Of a DNA stretch of 33,130 nt, positions 3,646 through 27,534 are shown piece after piece. Within the stretch, counting starts at the first letter, position 1; the number at the start of each line of letters is the position of its first letter. The notes under the pieces were generated by a model. The model did not search any database, was not told where the DNA came from, and saw only the letters and a program-made list of their open reading frames with translations. The DNA is from a virus, in the IMG/VR virus record IMGVR_UViG_3300014720_000105, positions 1 to 33,130 of that record, one strand, 5' to 3'. The position numbers and the translations under genes are program-made.

Positions 3646-4011
3646 ATGGCAATCTTAAACGTAAGAAATGAATCTAATAGATTTATAAAATTAGAGAATG
3701 ATACATTCATTCACAAACCATCAGGTGATACTGAAGACATAACAGTTGAAATTGTAGATGTTACGTCTGATAAAATTTTCAATGTATATTCAGACGAGGC
3801 TTGTGGTATATTTTTGGGGACCTTCAAACTTTTATTCAAGGCAAATGACGGTGTTTATTTAAATTTATCGGATATTGCTGGTAATAAACTAAAAGGTGAC
3901 TATGACTACGGTTCGAACTTAGAAGTTTCTTCAAATAGTGAAGAATTATTGTTGGATTGGGATTCATTGAATTCATCAACAATATTCAACGTGATTTTAT
4001 CAAACGCATAA
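3646..4011 (+). CDS. Hypothetical beta-rich protein
   Basis: The product is 121 aa with no recognised family. The sequence is rich in short hydrophobic strands (ITVEIVDVTS, FNVYSDEACGIFLGTFKLLF) with Gly/Asp turns, as in small beta-sandwich virion decoration proteins. There is no signal peptide or membrane segment. It ends in AACGCATAA, followed 5 bases later by a GTG start for the next gene. A structural role is a weak guess. Confidence 0.6.
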   Translation: MAILNVRNESNRFIKLENDTFIHKPSGDTEDITVEIVDVTSDKIFNVYSDEACGIFLGTFKLLFKANDGVYLNLSDIAGNKLKGDYDYGSNLEVSSNSEELLLDWDSLNSSTIFNVILSNA

Positions 4012-4016
4012 GACTT

Positions 4017-4301
4017 GTGAGAACAATTCTAATTACTAAAAAACAATATAAAAGGTTATTAGAAACGGGTTCGAACAGCGCTGCGATGGATTTGGACATT
4101 TATGTTCAACCTGTTCAATACGATACAAGCACAGGTAATGAAAATGTCGAAGATTCCTTGGATGAAATCATGGGAAAACTGAAAGAATTAAACTCCTTGT
4201 TCAAAGTTGGGAAAAAAGTCAAACAAGATACCAAAAACAAGATATTTTCAGTGGTAGATGAATTAAATTCAATCTACAACTCAACTAAAGAAGGAACATA
4301 A
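4017..4301 (+). CDS. Tagged small protein, GTG start
   Basis: The frame has no ATG until deep inside, but GTG at 4017 gives MRTILITKKQYKRLLE, which fits the N-terminal tag pattern of the window (compare MKIIITESQYTRLIE) and includes L-L-E at 14-16. The product is 94 aa with a hydrophilic middle and a Lys-rich helical C-terminus (LKELNSLFKVGKKVK). The last codons form the left arm of the terminator hairpin. The GTG choice rests on the tag similarity and on the 5-base gap after the previous stop. Confidence 0.6.
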   Translation: MRTILITKKQYKRLLETGSNSAAMDLDIYVQPVQYDTSTGNENVEDSLDEIMGKLKELNSLFKVGKKVKQDTKNKIFSVVDELNSIYNSTKEGT

Positions 4302-4326
4302 TTTACATTTTGTTCCTTCTTTTTAT
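4287..4326 (+). terminator. Strong rho-independent terminator
   Basis: AAAGAAGGAACA pairs with TGTTCCTTCTTT, followed by a T-rich run. The left arm is inside the coding sequence of the preceding gene. Confidence 0.9.
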
Positions 4327-4344
4327 TTTTTCAAAAACATCATC

Positions 4345-4539
4345 ATGCAAAGACTCACAAACGAACAAAAAGCCGAACTATATAACAGATATCTTTACCA
4401 ATATCAGAAAGTTCAAGAGGAAATAAGACAAATTAAGGCCAAAAACTTTGAGGTTTCCGAAAAAGACCAAAAAGAGATTGATAGATTAGAAATAATTGGT
4501 AAAAAAATCTTCAATGAAACTTCAAAACTTTATTTATAG
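4345..4539 (+). CDS. Small coiled-coil protein
   Basis: The product is 64 aa and almost entirely charged helix (KVQEEIRQIKAKNFEVSEKDQKEIDRLE), predicted coiled coil. The function is unknown. The start at 4345 follows an AT-rich stretch after the terminator. The 3' end overlaps the next gene by 26 bases. Confidence 0.55.
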   Translation: MQRLTNEQKAELYNRYLYQYQKVQEEIRQIKAKNFEVSEKDQKEIDRLEIIGKKIFNETSKLYL

Positions 4540-4765
4540 TTTTAAAATCCTGATTTTCGAATTATTCTTAAAAATTAGGGGGTTTTTTGTTAAAACGCCT
4601 ACACGTAAATTATCTTGGACTGTCGAGGATTTTCAAACTGCAAAAAAATGGTCAAAATCCCGTAAACATCCTTATTTGAAATTCAAAACACTTTGGGATT
4701 TTTGTGAAGACAGGTATGATTCTGTTTACACAATCCAAAATGTTAATAATTTCATTAAAATATGA
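4514..4765 (+). CDS. Small basic protein with hydrophobic N-terminus
   Basis: The ATG at 4514 gives 83 aa. Residues 5-27 (NFIYSFKILIFELFLKIRGFF) are hydrophobic and could be a membrane helix or buried helix. The rest is basic and aromatic (WTVEDFQTAKKWSKSRKHP). No family is recognised. Its stop overlaps the sulfotransferase-like start as ATGA, so the two are probably co-translated. Confidence 0.55.
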   Translation: MKLQNFIYSFKILIFELFLKIRGFFVKTPTRKLSWTVEDFQTAKKWSKSRKHPYLKFKTLWDFCEDRYDSVYTIQNVNNFIKI

Positions 4766-6445: not shown

Positions 6446-6688
6446 GTGGAAGATTCTTTGGAACTTTCCTATGGTGATAAATTATTGATTAACGAAATGA
6501 TTGTGTTACCAACACAAAAGTATGACCGAGAAAAAGACCAATGGTTACCTGATTCACATACCATTTTTTTATCAGTCAAAATAAAAGAAGGTAGTGATGA
6601 TTATCATAAATCAAATTACACAATTAACGAGGTAACCAATTTTTTGGAAAGTCTTTTGAACTTAGAGTGTTGTGTTGATTTTACCTAA
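6446..6688 (+). CDS. Hypothetical protein, GTG (or TTG) start
   Basis: No ATG opens this frame outside the upstream gene. GTG at 6446, 8 bases after the previous stop, gives 80 aa beginning with EDSLELSYGDKLLINEMIVL. TTG at 6443 is an alternative. The compact alpha/beta-looking protein has no recognised family. The arrangement (AACGCATAA, short gap, GTG) repeats that at 4011-4017, which favours translational coupling. Confidence 0.5.
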   Translation: MEDSLELSYGDKLLINEMIVLPTQKYDREKDQWLPDSHTIFLSVKIKEGSDDYHKSNYTINEVTNFLESLLNLECCVDFT

Positions 6689-6698
6689 ATTCGTCTAG

Positions 6699-6720
6699 AA
6701 CTAGTATTACTAGTTTTTTT
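6699..6720 (+). terminator. Rho-independent terminator
   Basis: AACTAGT, ATT and ACTAGTT are followed by a T-run, just after the stop at 6688. A second, purely AT hairpin (TTATTATTCT / AGAATAATAA) lies at about 6738-6760. Confidence 0.75.
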
Positions 6721-7641: not shown

Positions 7642-7938
7642 ATGCGTATCACCGAGCAAGAAAGAAAAGATATTTTATCAAAATATGAAAATGAAACCTC
7701 AGATGAACTTCTAACTTATCTGAAAAGACATTTTCCGACCCATAAAGTTGATATGCAGTGGATGAACAAACCTGCTATTTTTATTCAAATTGAAGATAAA
7801 ACAAAACCACTTCTTGGAAACAAAAAGTATCTTGTAGGAAAAATTTTCAATATGGTTGAAGAAGAGTGGATTGCTCTTGGGGAACAAAAAATAAGAAGAA
7901 CAATAAAAAAATATCTTGACGGAGTTATGAACTCTTAA
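7642..7938 (+). CDS. Tagged hypothetical protein (MRITEQERKDIL)
   Basis: I choose the ATG at 7642 because it sits 4 bases after TATTTAT and gives MRITEQERKDILSKYENE, a clean tag with I-T-E at 3-5. An ATG at 7636 would add MN and overlap the motif. The 98-aa product continues with a small alpha/beta-looking domain (FPTHKVDMQWMNKPAIFIQI) and a C-terminal basic helix (EQKIRRTIKKYLD). The function is unknown. It overlaps the convergent nuclease gene by 14 bases. Confidence 0.7.
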   Translation: MRITEQERKDILSKYENETSDELLTYLKRHFPTHKVDMQWMNKPAIFIQIEDKTKPLLGNKKYLVGKIFNMVEEEWIALGEQKIRRTIKKYLDGVMNS

Positions 7939-8566
7939 ATTTAAGACCAGTCAGCTTTTCAATCTCAGATAATTTTACTTCGTTGTTTTGAAACCCATCT
8001 GGTTTTGTGGTTGTGTTTTCAAACAAAAAAGATTTCCAAATATTTTCTTTTTTAATATAAATAACTTTCCAGCAATATTTTGGAACAGAAACAGAACCAA
8101 TTTTTTTAATTTCACCCACGTTACCGCACCAAACGCGAATTGAATCTGTTTTTTTCACTTCATCTCTAACAAAAGTTTCTAATGATTTCCAATCACCAGC
8201 ATTCAAACTGTGATACTGGGCAGACATGTTAGAGAAATAAAAACACTCATCTTGTACTTCTTGAGTTTGGCATAAGTTATCTGCTGCTGGCATCATGTGA
8301 CCCCTATCAAACCCACTTCCAACATAATCTTTCGCTAAATCAGTGTATTTTAAAATTTTTGGGTCAGGTTTGAAGTTATCTTTTCTTTTCAGTGGTGTTG
8401 GACAATCCACCATTTTTTTGGTGACCCACCATTCTACAACTATAGGGTACTTTTTTGATTTTGAAAAAACCGTACTATAGTTGGTGTGTTTAACTCTGAT
8501 TGTATCTTGAGAAAAAGATACAAATCCACTCAGACAAAAGATTGTAATTAATAAAAAGTTTTTCAT
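7925..8566 (-). CDS. Exported DNA/RNA non-specific endonuclease (NUC1/EndoG type)
   Basis: Starting at 8566 the protein is 213 aa with the signal peptide MKNFLLITIFCLSGFVSFSQ. This start lies 4 bases after TATTTAT, which rules out a longer 246-aa frame. The mature domain has the beta-beta-alpha-metal core: DRGHMMPAADN at 87-97 with His90 as predicted general base, followed by NMSAQ near 113 and an LNAGDWKSLE block that supplies the metal-binding Asn. These enzymes cut DNA and RNA without sequence preference. Export implies periplasmic or extracellular action, for example on DNA of incoming phages. That role is inference. Confidence 0.85.
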   Translation of the reverse strand: MKNFLLITIFCLSGFVSFSQDTIRVKHTNYSTVFSKSKKYPIVVEWWVTKKMVDCPTPLKRKDNFKPDPKILKYTDLAKDYVGSGFDRGHMMPAADNLCQTQEVQDECFYFSNMSAQYHSLNAGDWKSLETFVRDEVKKTDSIRVWCGNVGEIKKIGSVSVPKYCWKVIYIKKENIWKSFLFENTTTKPDGFQNNEVKLSEIEKLTGLKFKSS

Positions 8567-8570
8567 AAAA

Positions 8571-8577
8571 ATAAATA
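8571..8577 (-). promoter_or_regulatory. TATTTAT motif
   Basis: ATATTTAT on the minus strand with a 4-base spacer (TTTT) before the nuclease ATG. It fixes the signal-peptide start. Confidence 0.6.
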
Positions 8578-8687
8578 TTAAAAAAAATTTGACGGAATGA
8601 AAATCTCTGATTAAATTTGTATTGAGTTTGAAACTTACAGGCGATGAAAGATACTCGGTATTCAAACAAAAAAAAAGTTCTTACAAA

Positions 8688-8719
8688 TTTGGCGGTCTGA
8701 AAAAGATAACTTATCTTTG
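8688..8719 (+). promoter_or_regulatory. Bacteroidota-type promoter of tRNA-Phe
   Basis: TTTG (8688-8691), exactly 20 bases, then TATCTTTG (8712-8719). This fits the -33/-7 consensus TTG / TAnnTTTG of the Bacteroidota primary sigma factor. The tRNA starts 10 bases after the -7 element. Confidence 0.8.
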
Positions 8720-8729
8720 TAAGACAATT

Positions 8730-8817
8730 GGTTGAGGTAGCTCAGTTACTCTTCGGGGTTTAGGGTAGAGCAACGGGTGAAAACCGTGAGCCAGTGGTTC
8801 GACTCCACTCCCAACCA
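8730..8817 (+). tRNA. tRNA-Phe (GAA) with a hairpin insertion in the D-loop
   Basis: The acceptor arms GGTTGAG (8730-8736) and CCCAACC (8810-8816) pair with one A-C mismatch. The D-stem is GCTC (8740-8743) / GAGC (8768-8771). The anticodon stem ACGG/CCGT encloses GTGAAAA, with anticodon GAA at 8779-8781. The T-arm AGTGG-TTCGACT-CCACT is standard. No CCA is encoded. The D-loop is 24 nt: removing the 16 nt at 8748-8763 leaves the normal AGTTGGTA. The extra piece folds as ACTC-TTCG-GGGT, a UUCG-capped hairpin. Confidence 0.85.
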
Positions 8818-8850: not shown

Positions 8851-8856
8851 AAAGAT

Positions 8857-8888
8857 TTGGAAGGCATTAAAATCTTTCTTATCTTTGT
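8857..8888 (+). promoter_or_regulatory. Bacteroidota-type promoter of the structured RNA
   Basis: TTTG (8857-8860), 20 bases, TATCTTTG (8881-8888). An 18-base block, CTTATCTTTGTAAGACAA, is identical to that of the tRNA-Phe promoter, so the two appear to be duplicated strong promoters. Confidence 0.8.
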
Positions 8889-8893
8889 AAGAC

Positions 8894-9200
8894 AAATGGA
8901 CAGCGGAATGTTTTTTTTGTGGTGGTTACCCATACTCACCCAACCTTATTTCTTCTCCGCTTTATAAATTAGAAAAAAAGGTTAATCAAAACACGGGAGG
9001 TTTATACGGAAAGGTGAATCCAGTTTAATCCTTAATAAACTAAAAACCACAGCCCTTTTTGGATGTTTCGGGCGTTAAATTAGAAACAGAAGTTGTCCAC
9101 TTCCTCGGGTTTATCGGTCTCTCGCCCATTGTCCAAAAAAATTAGACCAAAATTATCTCGACGGAGATTAGGGGGACACGGCGGTGTCCCCTTTTTTTTT
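8894..9200 (+). ncRNA. Candidate structured non-coding RNA, about 305 nt
   Basis: This gene-free stretch starts just after a strong promoter and ends with GGGGACAC-ggcg-GTGTCCCC and a T-run (about 9174-9200). Complementary pieces suggest a compact fold: TGGACA (8898-8903) with TGTCCA (9130-9135) as closing stem, GCGG with CCGC, TGTGGT with ACCACA, GGGCG with CGCCC, and local hairpins GAAGT/ACTTC, AGTTTA/TAAACT and ATCTC/GAGAT. I checked by eye for RNase P RNA, tmRNA, 6S and SRP RNA signatures and found none. Overlapping short frames lack credible starts. It is probably an abundant RNA, given its promoter. Confidence 0.7.
9174..9200 (+). terminator. Strong terminator of the structured RNA
   Basis: Eight G/C-rich pairs (GGGGACAC / GTGTCCCC) around a GGCG loop, followed by ten T. 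Confidence 0.95.
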
Positions 9201-9223: not shown

Positions 9224-9790
9224 ATGGCGTGTAACTACTACGAAATTACCAATTATAACAATGTTGAAGAAGGATATTACAGATGGACTGGATGTACTGA
9301 AGGAATTATAAGTGTTTCCCCCTTGAACCCTTTAGATAGGGCTTATGTTTGTGCTGAAAATTTAATTCAGGAAGAATATAGTTCACCTTTGACCATTGAA
9401 AATCTTGGACCTTGTCCATCAGCAACCCCTACTGCTACACTAACACCATCCGTTACACCAACACTAACACCAACACCCACAGTCCATACACCAACTCCAA
9501 CCCCAACTTATACACCAACACCCACAGTTTCATCTACCCCAATTTTTATGGAAAGGTTAATTACTGGAGGTTGGTATCAAGACGTTTGCGAATCAATAGA
9601 TTATGGAACACCTAGCAACGTTACCATTTATTCTTATAAGCCTTTTCATTTGTTGAGACCTGGTGACCATGTGTTTGGAAATAAAGAACTGAACATCCCT
9701 CCGATAAATGCGAAGTTCACAATTACAGATGGTGCAACTTTTATTCAAGTTACAGGAACTCTTGTGATAAATTGGGGTCAGTGTGGATAA
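9224..9790 (+). CDS. Pro/Thr-rich linker protein, probable virion surface protein
   Basis: The product is 188 aa. Residues 1-63 form a Cys-containing domain, 64-105 a Pro/Thr-rich linker (TPTPTPTYTPTPT and similar), and 106-188 a beta-rich domain. PT-rich linkers are common between domains of phage fibres and decoration proteins. The linker is encoded partly by a 17-base direct repeat (9467-9483 and 9512-9528). Extended PT repeats are natural substrates for O-glycosylation and proline hydroxylation in other systems. The window also encodes glycosyltransferase-like and prolyl-hydroxylase-like proteins. Confidence 0.65.
   Translation: MACNYYEITNYNNVEEGYYRWTGCTEGIISVSPLNPLDRAYVCAENLIQEEYSSPLTIENLGPCPSATPTATLTPSVTPTLTPTPTVHTPTPTPTYTPTPTVSSTPIFMERLITGGWYQDVCESIDYGTPSNVTIYSYKPFHLLRPGDHVFGNKELNIPPINAKFTITDGATFIQVTGTLVINWGQCG
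9467..9528 (+). repeat. Direct repeat in PT-rich linker
   Basis: ACACCAACACCCACAGT occurs at 9467-9483 and 9512-9528, a 45-base period within the Pro/Thr coding stretch. Confidence 0.8.
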
Positions 9791-17682: not shown

Positions 17683-17703
17683 CAGATTTTTGGATTAAAA
17701 TAG

Positions 17704-17710
17704 TATTTAT
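17704..17710 (+). promoter_or_regulatory. TATTTAT motif
   Basis: GTATTTAT lies 16 bases before the PPK2 ATG at 17727. Confidence 0.5.
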
Positions 17711-17726
17711 TAATAAACAATTTTGG

Positions 17727-18833
17727 ATGTCTATATTAAATGAAGTTGGGAGAATACGTGCTGTTATGGGTTTCATATCAGAAGAGGAGAAGGTGAGTAA
17801 CCTTAAAATGAATGTTAACCTGAAAAGTTTTGTCGAAACTTTACAATTTCTTAAACTTTACAATAAGAAAATTGAAAAAATGTTGATGGATATTTCTGAT
17901 TATTCTAACAATCAGATTATTGATTTCGACATGATGAATAGAGGTCTAAGAAAAGTTTTGTTGAAAAAAGGTGATAGAAGTAAAAACGTTGAAGATTATT
18001 TAGGTAAAATTCTGACCTCCCTGAAATACAGGGAAAGGAGTGGATACGGAATAGAACCTGAAAGCGAAGATTACGAATTCGAAATAGAAGAGCCATCATT
18101 GATTCCGAAAAAAGTATTCAGAAAAGAACTATACGAACTTCAAGTTGAACTTCTCAAATTACAGGAATGGCTCAAAAAAACAAATAAGACAGTCATTATT
18201 GTTTTTGAAGGAAGGGATTCTGCGGGAAAAGGCTCTACAATTAAAAAGTTCATTGAGAATTTAAATCCAAGATACTATAACGTAATTGCTTTAGGTGTTC
18301 CTACACCAGAAGATAAGAAAGATTGGTGGGGTAGATATAGAAAACAAATCAAACCTGGAATGATTAACCTTTTCGACAGAAGTTGGTATAATAGAGGTTT
18401 GATAGAACCTGTGATGGGTTACGGTTCACCTGAAGAATATGAAGATTTTATGGAAAACGTTGAGGATTTCGAAAACGATTTAGTAAAAGACGGAGATTAT
18501 CTTTTCAAGTTGTGGTTTTCAATCGACAAGGGAACTCAATCAAGAAGATTTAAAATGAGACAACAATCTCCTTTAAAATATTGGAAGTATTCTCCAAACG
18601 ATTCGCAAATGCAAGATTTGTGGGATAGATTTACAGAGTTCAAAGAAAAGTTATTTGATAAAACGTCCACTCTTAATCATCCTTGGGTTATTATTGATGC
18701 TGAGGACAAAAGAGTTTCAGGTCTAAACGCTATCAGATATGTTTTACAAAATATCCCCTATGAGGGTAAGAACGAGGAAGTTCTTGATAAAGAATATCCT
18801 GAAGTACTAGCAGTATTAAAGCCAAATTCATAA
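17727..18833 (+). CDS. Tagged polyphosphate kinase 2 family protein
   Basis: From 17727 the protein is 368 aa. The PPK2 core has Walker A FEGRDSAGKGS (160-170), the Walker B/NLFDRSWYNRG block (214-224), and the lid region with RRFKMRQQSPLKYW; near the end is WVIIDAEDK. PPK2 enzymes use polyphosphate to phosphorylate NDPs or NMPs. The first ~128 residues are an extra helical region opening with MSILNEVGRIRAVMGF and an L-N-E site at 4-6, matching the window's tag. If packaged, it could recharge nucleotides from host polyphosphate early in infection. The chosen start lies after TATTTAT. Confidence 0.88.
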   Translation: MSILNEVGRIRAVMGFISEEEKVSNLKMNVNLKSFVETLQFLKLYNKKIEKMLMDISDYSNNQIIDFDMMNRGLRKVLLKKGDRSKNVEDYLGKILTSLKYRERSGYGIEPESEDYEFEIEEPSLIPKKVFRKELYELQVELLKLQEWLKKTNKTVIIVFEGRDSAGKGSTIKKFIENLNPRYYNVIALGVPTPEDKKDWWGRYRKQIKPGMINLFDRSWYNRGLIEPVMGYGSPEEYEDFMENVEDFENDLVKDGDYLFKLWFSIDKGTQSRRFKMRQQSPLKYWKYSPNDSQMQDLWDRFTEFKEKLFDKTSTLNHPWVIIDAEDKRVSGLNAIRYVLQNIPYEGKNEEVLDKEYPEVLAVLKPNS

Positions 18834-22494: not shown

Positions 22495-22577
22495 CGGAGA
22501 GGGAGGGAATCGAACCCCCAAAGCTTTTACACCCAGCTGATTTCAAGTCAGTGTCCTCGTCCATTCGGACCCTCTCC
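22495..22577 (-). tRNA. tRNA-Ser (UGA)
   Basis: The 83-nt minus-strand gene has the acceptor GGAGAGG pairing with CCTCTCC, a long variable arm (TGGGTGTAAAAGCTTT region), a T-arm with GGTTCGATTCC, and the anticodon loop CTTGAAA giving anticodon TGA. Four of five anticodon-stem pairs form (CTGA/TCAG); the outer A-C pair is mismatched. CCA is not encoded (GCA follows instead). It lies one base after the homing endonuclease stop and is probably processed from the same transcript. Confidence 0.88.
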
Positions 22578-26436: not shown

Positions 26437-27534
26437 TTAATTACTTAGTGGTGCTTTGATTGATGGGTGGGAGTTATAGTTTACAACTTGGATTTGGTCG
26501 ACTTTGATATTTTCCCAATCGACAATATACCCATCCCTAAATTTAAAATCAAAATCTAACTTAATTGACGGTAATTCAAAAGAGGTCCTTTCAATTTGTT
26601 CTCTTGCTTGGTCAATATGATTTAGATAAAGATGCGTATCACCTAAATTTCCTATTAAATCCTCTGGAACCATATTTGTGAGTTTGCCGAGCAAAGTCAA
26701 CAATAATCCATAAGACGCGATATTGAACGGCAAACCTAAAAAGGTATCTACAGACCTTTGATTCCACATCAGAGAAATTGCTCTTGTTGGTGTCTTTTCA
26801 TAATATTCGTTATCAAAATCAGGTACTTCCGTTTCATTGTACTCCATACCTGTTTCGTAATTTTTTGAGAACCAATGATTATATCTTTCGTTATAGGTCA
26901 ACTCCCGTGTGTAGAGTTGAAATCCATAATGGCATGGAGGTAAAACCATATCATCTAACTCAGCAACATTCCAAGCATTTACCATCAATCTTCTTGAATC
27001 GGGTTCAGTTTTCAGTTGGTAAATTAAACGTTGAATTTGGTCATACCAAATTGAACCACGTCTATCACCATCATTCAAATCCATCCAACCTTGCCACTTT
27101 CTCCACTGTTTTCCATAGATTGGTCCTAAATCACCCCAATGTTTGACGAATCTTTCATCATCTTTAATTTTTGTAACGAAATCTTCTTTAGATAAATTGA
27201 AATGAGGGTGACCAGACATGGCGGTATTCAAATCAAACTCACGTTTTGATTGTTTTAAATAGTTTTTATATGCATCACCATCCCAAATGTGGCAATTATT
27301 ATCGACAAGAAATTTTATGTTAGTATCACCTCTTAAAAACCAAAGAAGTTCAGTCACCATCGTTTTCCAAGCCATTTTTTTGGTTGTGAGTAAAGGAAAA
27401 CCTTCTCTCATATTATGTCGGATTTGATAACCAAAAATTGACTTAGTTCCAGTACCCGTTCTATCTTTTTTTTCTACACCATTACGAAGAATGTGTAGTA
27501 GAAGGTCTTGATATTGTTTGTCTATGGAATTCAT
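26437..27534 (-). CDS. thyA: Thymidylate synthase
   Basis: The 365-aa protein is a ThyA: DRTGTGT at 24-30, LLTTKKMAWK, LWFLRGDTN, the active-site block MVLPPCHYGFQ with Cys201, then WNQRSVDTFLGLPFN and GDTHLYLNH. It methylates dUMP to dTMP using methylene-tetrahydrofolate. It is about 100 residues longer than the E. coli enzyme, with an insertion at about 209-252 and a second near 95-130, as in some phage and Bacteroidota enzymes. It is last in a four-gene operon and overlaps the Smr gene by 4 bases. Confidence 0.97.
   Translation of the reverse strand: MNSIDKQYQDLLLHILRNGVEKKDRTGTGTKSIFGYQIRHNMREGFPLLTTKKMAWKTMVTELLWFLRGDTNIKFLVDNNCHIWDGDAYKNYLKQSKREFDLNTAMSGHPHFNLSKEDFVTKIKDDERFVKHWGDLGPIYGKQWRKWQGWMDLNDGDRRGSIWYDQIQRLIYQLKTEPDSRRLMVNAWNVAELDDMVLPPCHYGFQLYTRELTYNERYNHWFSKNYETGMEYNETEVPDFDNEYYEKTPTRAISLMWNQRSVDTFLGLPFNIASYGLLLTLLGKLTNMVPEDLIGNLGDTHLYLNHIDQAREQIERTSFELPSIKLDFDFKFRDGYIVDWENIKVDQIQVVNYNSHPSIKAPLSN

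Follow-up and report, generated by a model that had tools for sequence, protein, structure and literature searches.

A structured RNA family of about 300 nt beside a tRNA-Phe-like gene in large T4-like phages

What is encoded at 8898-9200 of a 33,130-nt viral stretch (IMG/VR record IMGVR_UViG_3300014720_000105, here called the window), between an Endonuclease_NS gene (7925-8581, opposite strand) and an ORF starting at 9224? An earlier, sequence-only reading had proposed a structured RNA with its own promoter and terminator, lying next to a tRNA. Using homologue searches, a covariance model, covariation statistics and locus comparison, we conclude that this segment almost certainly represents a real structured RNA family, because it is conserved in relatives and its shape is kept through paired mutations. 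That it is a stand-alone structured ncRNA gene is well supported. Table 1 collects the features.

Table 1. Features of the ncRNA locus in window coordinates
Feature	Position	Strand	Details
Structured ncRNA	8898..9200	+	~303 nt; homologues, covariance model R1, covariation
Bacteroidetes-type promoter of ncRNA	8856..8887	+	TTTG-N20-TATCTTTG; motif scan and 18-locus check
Intrinsic terminator	9172..9200	+	hairpin 9172-9191, stem GGGGACAC/GTGTCCCC, loop GGCG, U-run
tRNA-Phe(GAA)-like gene	8730..8817	+	extra D-loop hairpin; constant upstream neighbour of ncRNA
Promoter of tRNA-like gene	8688..8719	+	motif scan
Pseudoknot 1, 5′ strand AGCGGA	8902..8907	+	pairs with H1 loop 8956-8961 (TCCGCT)
Pseudoknot 2, 5′ strand GGACA	8898..8902	+	pairs with H5 loop TGTCC 9094-9098
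P1, 5′ strand TGTTT (tentative)	8909..8913	+	pairs with 9084-9088; 85.6% of cells paired
P2, 5′ strand GTGGT (tentative)	8919..8923	+	pairs with 9046-9050; TGGTT/AACCA in L212
Hairpin H1	8942..8983	+	8942-8946/8979-8983 and 8949-8953/8971-8975; loop is pseudoknot 1 partner; swap 0/5000
Conserved unpaired motif CACGGGAGGTTT	8992..9003	+	GGGCAG/GGGCGG in divergent members
Hairpin H2	9008..9021	+	strand table and model-fitted covariation
Hairpin H3	9022..9041	+	5/5 pairs changed on both sides
Hairpin H4 (GCCC/GGGC)	9052..9073	+	3/4 pairs changed on both sides
Hairpin H5, loop TGTCC 9094-9098	9089..9103	+	5/5 pairs changed on both sides; swap 0/5000
H-type pseudoknot	9107..9148	+	PK3 GGG 9107-9109/CCC 9125-9127; H6 GGTCT 9116-9120/AGACC 9144-9148
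Hairpin H7	9155..9168	+	stem ATCTC/GAGAT, loop GACG; swap test and model-fitted covariation

Boundaries and coding capacity of the gene

The Bacteroidetes housekeeping promoter consensus combines TTTG around -33 with TAnnTTTG at -7 (PMC7366714). The motif TTTG-N20-TATCTTTG occurs five times on the two strands of the 33-kb window, against 2.48 expected per window, and three of these occurrences (8588, 8688 and 8856) fall within one 300-nt stretch, each just 5′ of an RNA element. With G or A as its last base, the motif ends 4-12 nt 5′ of the ncRNA at all 18 loci checked. At the 3′ end the terminator is conserved, six of its eight stem pairs showing changes on both sides among relatives. As sequence features, the promoter and terminator proposed earlier are thus borne out. 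Transcription would begin a few nucleotides 5′ of 8898, the ncRNA itself would start at about GGACAGCGGA, and host RNA polymerase with its housekeeping sigma factor would be the transcribing enzyme.

We found no ORF of note in 8898-9200, and no frame stays open across members, in agreement with the sequence-only reading, which had seen no credible ORF. Stop-free stretches do occur in some members, reaching 102 codons in one of them (L094), and could be taken to mean that the segment is a short protein-coding gene that had escaped notice, or decayed sequence, and not an RNA gene; the lack of a shared frame, the constant length and substitutions that follow base pairs make this a negligible prospect.

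Whole-library Rfam 15 scans, covering the window, its relatives and a divergent member, brought no family to its cut-off at the ncRNA, so that the Rfam search that the earlier reading had called for yielded no known family; at E values up to 10, sub-threshold matches alone appeared. One of them, to the L20 leader, scored 25.9 bits against a cut-off of 58.7 and, lying well under it, was judged to be chance. Rfam and ARAGORN likewise returned no tmRNA, RNase P, 6S or SRP match in the window, as the absence of such signatures by eye had suggested.

Homologues and the covarying fold

At least 36 further IMG/VR contigs, including contigs of 317-321 kb, carry the same ~300-nt RNA. They yield 19 different full-length sequences, between 294 and 308 nt long (the shortest, L096 with 294 nt, is cut by the end of its stretch), and length is near-constant despite divergence. 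The first relatives came from a search with neighbouring proteins and carry ncRNA copies that are 79-86% identical; further contigs were collected with gapped DNA patterns on IMG/VR, and a 3′-motif pattern added two more that share one identical divergent copy. One viral pattern scan missed most members, another returned known contigs and no new ones, and in bacterial genome contigs 32 pattern matches looked chance-like, with no alignable member seen. The invariance of GGACAGCGG, CATACTCACC, TCTCCGCT and ACGGGAGGTTT, as well as that of CACGGGAGGTTT, is partly imposed by the search patterns, whereas the patterns that found L158-L160 and L212 did not require either strand of pseudoknot 1 or of pseudoknot 2.

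Covariance model R1 matched 24 of the 27 records searched, with one strong match in each except G028 (L160/L178), where three tandem ncRNA copies, each with its own promoter motif, follow tRNA-Phe. In L178 this triplicate spans 3684-4763, 3′ of a normal tRNA-Phe, and its copies 1 and 2 are without the 3′ part holding H6, H7 and the terminator. L212, which had been left out of the model, scored 160.5 bits (E 1.2e-47), and compensatory changes in it preserve the helices and pseudoknots. Weak matches in G009, G010, G011 and G013 (19.3 bits) were set aside, since on inspection only the terminator hairpin aligns well; W04 gave a weak match of 18.4 bits.

The terminase, of T4-like type, shares 25-28% identity with those of LR756508 and Flavobacterium phage immuto. 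We describe the ncRNA as a new family, known to date from a single clade of large T4-like phages; novelty was judged against Rfam 15 and open PMC text. The promoter type and the distant terminase similarity suggest that the hosts are probably Bacteroidetes. The window also encodes a phage polyphosphate kinase 2 (PPK2, 17700-18833, E 4e-69) and, on the minus strand, a thymidylate synthase (26437-27534) whose 365 aa exceed the 266 positions of the family profile, perhaps owing to an insert.

Folding energies of the single sequence are not significantly different from those of shuffles (z of -1.22 with the terminator and -0.04 without it), and the evidence for structure therefore comes from the homologues alone. 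When 18 sequences are aligned by MAFFT on sequence alone, 83.2% of cells are paired versus 75.0% in shuffles and 37 pairs are changed on both sides versus 24.8, with a covariation score of 0.297 versus 0.175; none of 500 shuffles reached these figures, and slid registers drop to 45-52% paired. The model-fitted alignment, which leans towards the structure, gives 85.5% of cells paired, 41 double-change pairs versus 27.1 in shuffles (0/500) and a score of 0.319 versus 0.167, with all slid registers far lower. An alignment-free test, in which strands are swapped between members, weakens H1 from -5.97 to -2.47 kcal/mol, H5 from -3.79 to -1.31 and H7 from -4.99 to -2.64 (0/5000 permutations for each), and gives no covariation signal for P1. 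A strand table drawn up by eye, biased by selection, agrees with the covariation. The compensatory changes that the earlier reading had proposed to look for in homologues are indeed there.

The resulting fold has three pseudoknots in addition to seven hairpins or helices and the terminator; two of the pseudoknots connect the 5′-terminal ten nucleotides with hairpin loops. Pseudoknot 1 covaries, reading AGAGGG/CCCTCT, AGAGAG/CTCTCT and AGAGGA/TCCTCT in L158, L159 and L212. The case for pseudoknot 2 rests on invariance of GGAC/GTCC in the aligned members and on one compensatory double change, AGACA/TGTCT, in a tandem paralogue (L178 copy 1). In L212, PK3 reads CGGC/GCCG and H6 GTTTAA/TTAAAC. Helices P1 and P2 are weakly supported. 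The closing stem proposed earlier between 8898-8903 and 9130-9135 is complementary in the window but is not conserved: relatives read TAGTC, AACCC or CAGTT on its 3′ side, and the conserved partner of GGACA is instead the H5 hairpin loop. A kissing contact between the H3 and H4 loops, seen by eye in the window (ATCC/GGAT), is lost in divergent members and was rejected.

The neighbouring tRNA and possible roles of the RNA

The tRNA noted earlier beside the ncRNA is real, but aberrant: it carries a D-loop insert, is missed by ARAGORN and reaches 25.2 bits in Rfam against a cut-off of 29. A further tRNA at 22495-22577 (minus strand) lies above the Rfam cut-off and is also absent from the ARAGORN output. 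The insert, which is frequent among the equivalent tRNAs of relatives, sits before the GG pair and, by eye, its pairing is kept while its sequence changes (ACTC-TTCG-GGGT in the window; TGTGAAG-CATGA-CTTCACA in L212, at 6609-6699; equivalents in L159, L121, L120 and L125). Some 80 nt, holding a terminator-like hairpin and the promoter motif, separate the tRNA end at 8817 from the ncRNA. Upstream of the tRNA lies a second conserved small RNA element (8626-8667), a hairpin GTTTGAA...TTCAAAC enclosing the core ACAGGCGATGAAAGATACTCGGTA and preceded by a promoter motif of its own (8588-8619). The element occurs in most relatives, where its stem covaries. It has no Rfam match, and its core is reminiscent of the GGCGATGAAGGACG motif of 23S rRNA.

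Every member for which the upstream region is available has a tRNA-Phe(GAA)-like gene ahead of the ncRNA. This adjacency is kept although G009, G014 and G028 have a normal tRNA-Phe in their main large tRNA array elsewhere, which makes the ncRNA-adjoining tRNA an extra copy there. The two might thus form a module in which the ncRNA holds, protects or displays the aberrant tRNA, or in which both act as decoys for host nucleases. We consider this improbable: no covariation between ncRNA and tRNA was seen, the partner tRNAs of L119, L124 and L178 are without the D-loop insert, and adjacency could reflect vertical inheritance of one locus. The bolder proposal that the ~300-nt RNA and the additional, D-loop-extended tRNA-Phe next to it constitute a dedicated machine of two RNAs in giant phages, separate from GOLLD and used by phages that carry GOLLD too, is similarly doubtful; if true, such a machine could, for instance, be a particle of RNA capturing or presenting a modified tRNA to control host or phage translation.

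Since the ncRNA ends in a terminator just 5′ of an ORF, it could also be a cis-acting leader or attenuator, whether a riboswitch, a T-box-like element or a protein-binding leader, controlling the gene at 9224 through that terminator. Its GGTGGTT is, by inspection, the complement of AACCACC, the 3′ end that the adjoining tRNA-Phe should have once CCA is added, a superficial likeness to the UGGU motif of T-box leaders near a tRNA. That pairing shows no covariation, however: the tRNAs of L119, L124 and L178 read TACCA while the ncRNA still reads GGTGGTT, which moreover has an internal partner in P2. Unlike a T-box, the ncRNA has no Rfam match and no constant regulated gene, and T-box-like tRNA pairing was dropped for its want of covariation. 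In a casual, unsystematic look, the terminator showed no alternative pairing that is conserved. Across the clade the locus is syntenic, yet the next gene 3′ of the ncRNA varies, being of the 9224 type in the window, L008, L094, L116 and L118 and of other types in L009, L097, L112, L119, L120 and L124; the constant downstream gene or pathway of a cis-leader or riboswitch is thus not found. That the immediate downstream gene differs while the ncRNA stays argues against a leader role, which we regard as unlikely.

The segment GGGAGGTTT suggests yet another role. GGAGG is complementary to CCUCC of the 16S anti-Shine-Dalgarno sequence, and the segment can pair there, so that the RNA might act as a decoy of the ribosome through GGGAGGU or, in a 6S-like manner, of host RNA polymerase. 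Because divergent members read GGGCAG or GGGCGG, this complementarity is not conserved; the fold has no long bubble helix of the 6S type, and no Rfam 6S match was obtained. Either form of decoy seems to us very unlikely.

We instead favour, with modest confidence in the statement as a whole, a stand-alone RNA gene whose product acts in trans as a scaffold. The 5′ decamer GGACAGCGGA would fold back and lock the H5 loop TGTCC and the H1 loop TCCGC. The resulting body would be compact, multibranched and resistant to exonucleases, and from it the conserved single-stranded segments CCCATACTCACC and CACGGGAGGTTT would be exposed as putative partner-binding sites. Its likeliest role may be that of a stable RNP or RNA-oligomer scaffold during infection, in the manner of GOLLD and ROOL, in preference to cis-regulation of the next gene. 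This suggestion draws on the promoter, the terminator, the varying downstream gene, the compact pseudoknotted fold and the GOLLD/ROOL analogy.

Comparison with known structured phage RNAs

Theta (HDV-like) ribozymes are likewise pseudoknotted phage RNAs tied to tRNAs, which they adjoin within about 5 nt (PMC10879173). The constant position beside a tRNA and the pseudoknotted fold could accordingly mark our ncRNA as a ribozyme or tRNA-processing RNA, theta/HDV-like or RNase P-like, serving the adjoining tRNA. It differs from theta ribozymes, however, in having its own promoter and terminator, in the terminator-like hairpin and wider spacing that set it off from the tRNA, and in size and pairing plan; with no match to a ribozyme or RNase P model in Rfam either, we hold such a function to be quite unlikely. 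What the locus does display is the set of features of a free-standing phage ncRNA gene: promoter and terminator sequences, no ORF and conserved structure.

The closest parallels are GOLLD (RF02032), likewise a large structured RNA of large phages near tRNA genes whose function is not known, and ROOL, likewise an ornate pseudoknotted phage RNA near tRNA islands; both form RNA-only cages (PMC12286853). The likeness to them drawn in the sequence-only reading is apt as an analogy, and the ncRNA is, as that reading noted, much shorter: about 300 nt, against a 416-position GOLLD model with many members above 800 nt and 659 nt for ROOL env-120 (PMC12286853). Kinship is another matter. Neither the window nor the ncRNA of relatives matched the GOLLD covariance model (criterion >150 bits), and the 317-321 kb contigs carry GOLLD and the ncRNA as separate loci about 70 kb apart (at 249 and 178 kb in G009), which excludes GOLLD membership; ROOL membership is unsupported, whole-library Rfam scans giving no ROOL match in window or relatives. 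Conversely, the 634/642-kb phages LR745206/LR756502 have the same promoter type and GOLLD, without the ~300-nt RNA. We also observed GOLLD in 634/642-kb huge phages and 317-321 kb phages (L003, 4835-5240; L004, 4740-5146; L188), where tRNA-like genes with this type of promoter lie close by.

Only a small number of structured RNAs have been described from phages, and GOLLD and ROOL are still without a function. A further family, much shorter, of constant size and with well-supported covariation, occurring in the same large phages and next to an unusual tRNA, provides a compact target for structural and genetic work, and its covariance model makes it searchable in other genomes. Its presence alongside GOLLD in the same contigs shows that two unrelated large structured RNAs can occur in a single phage.
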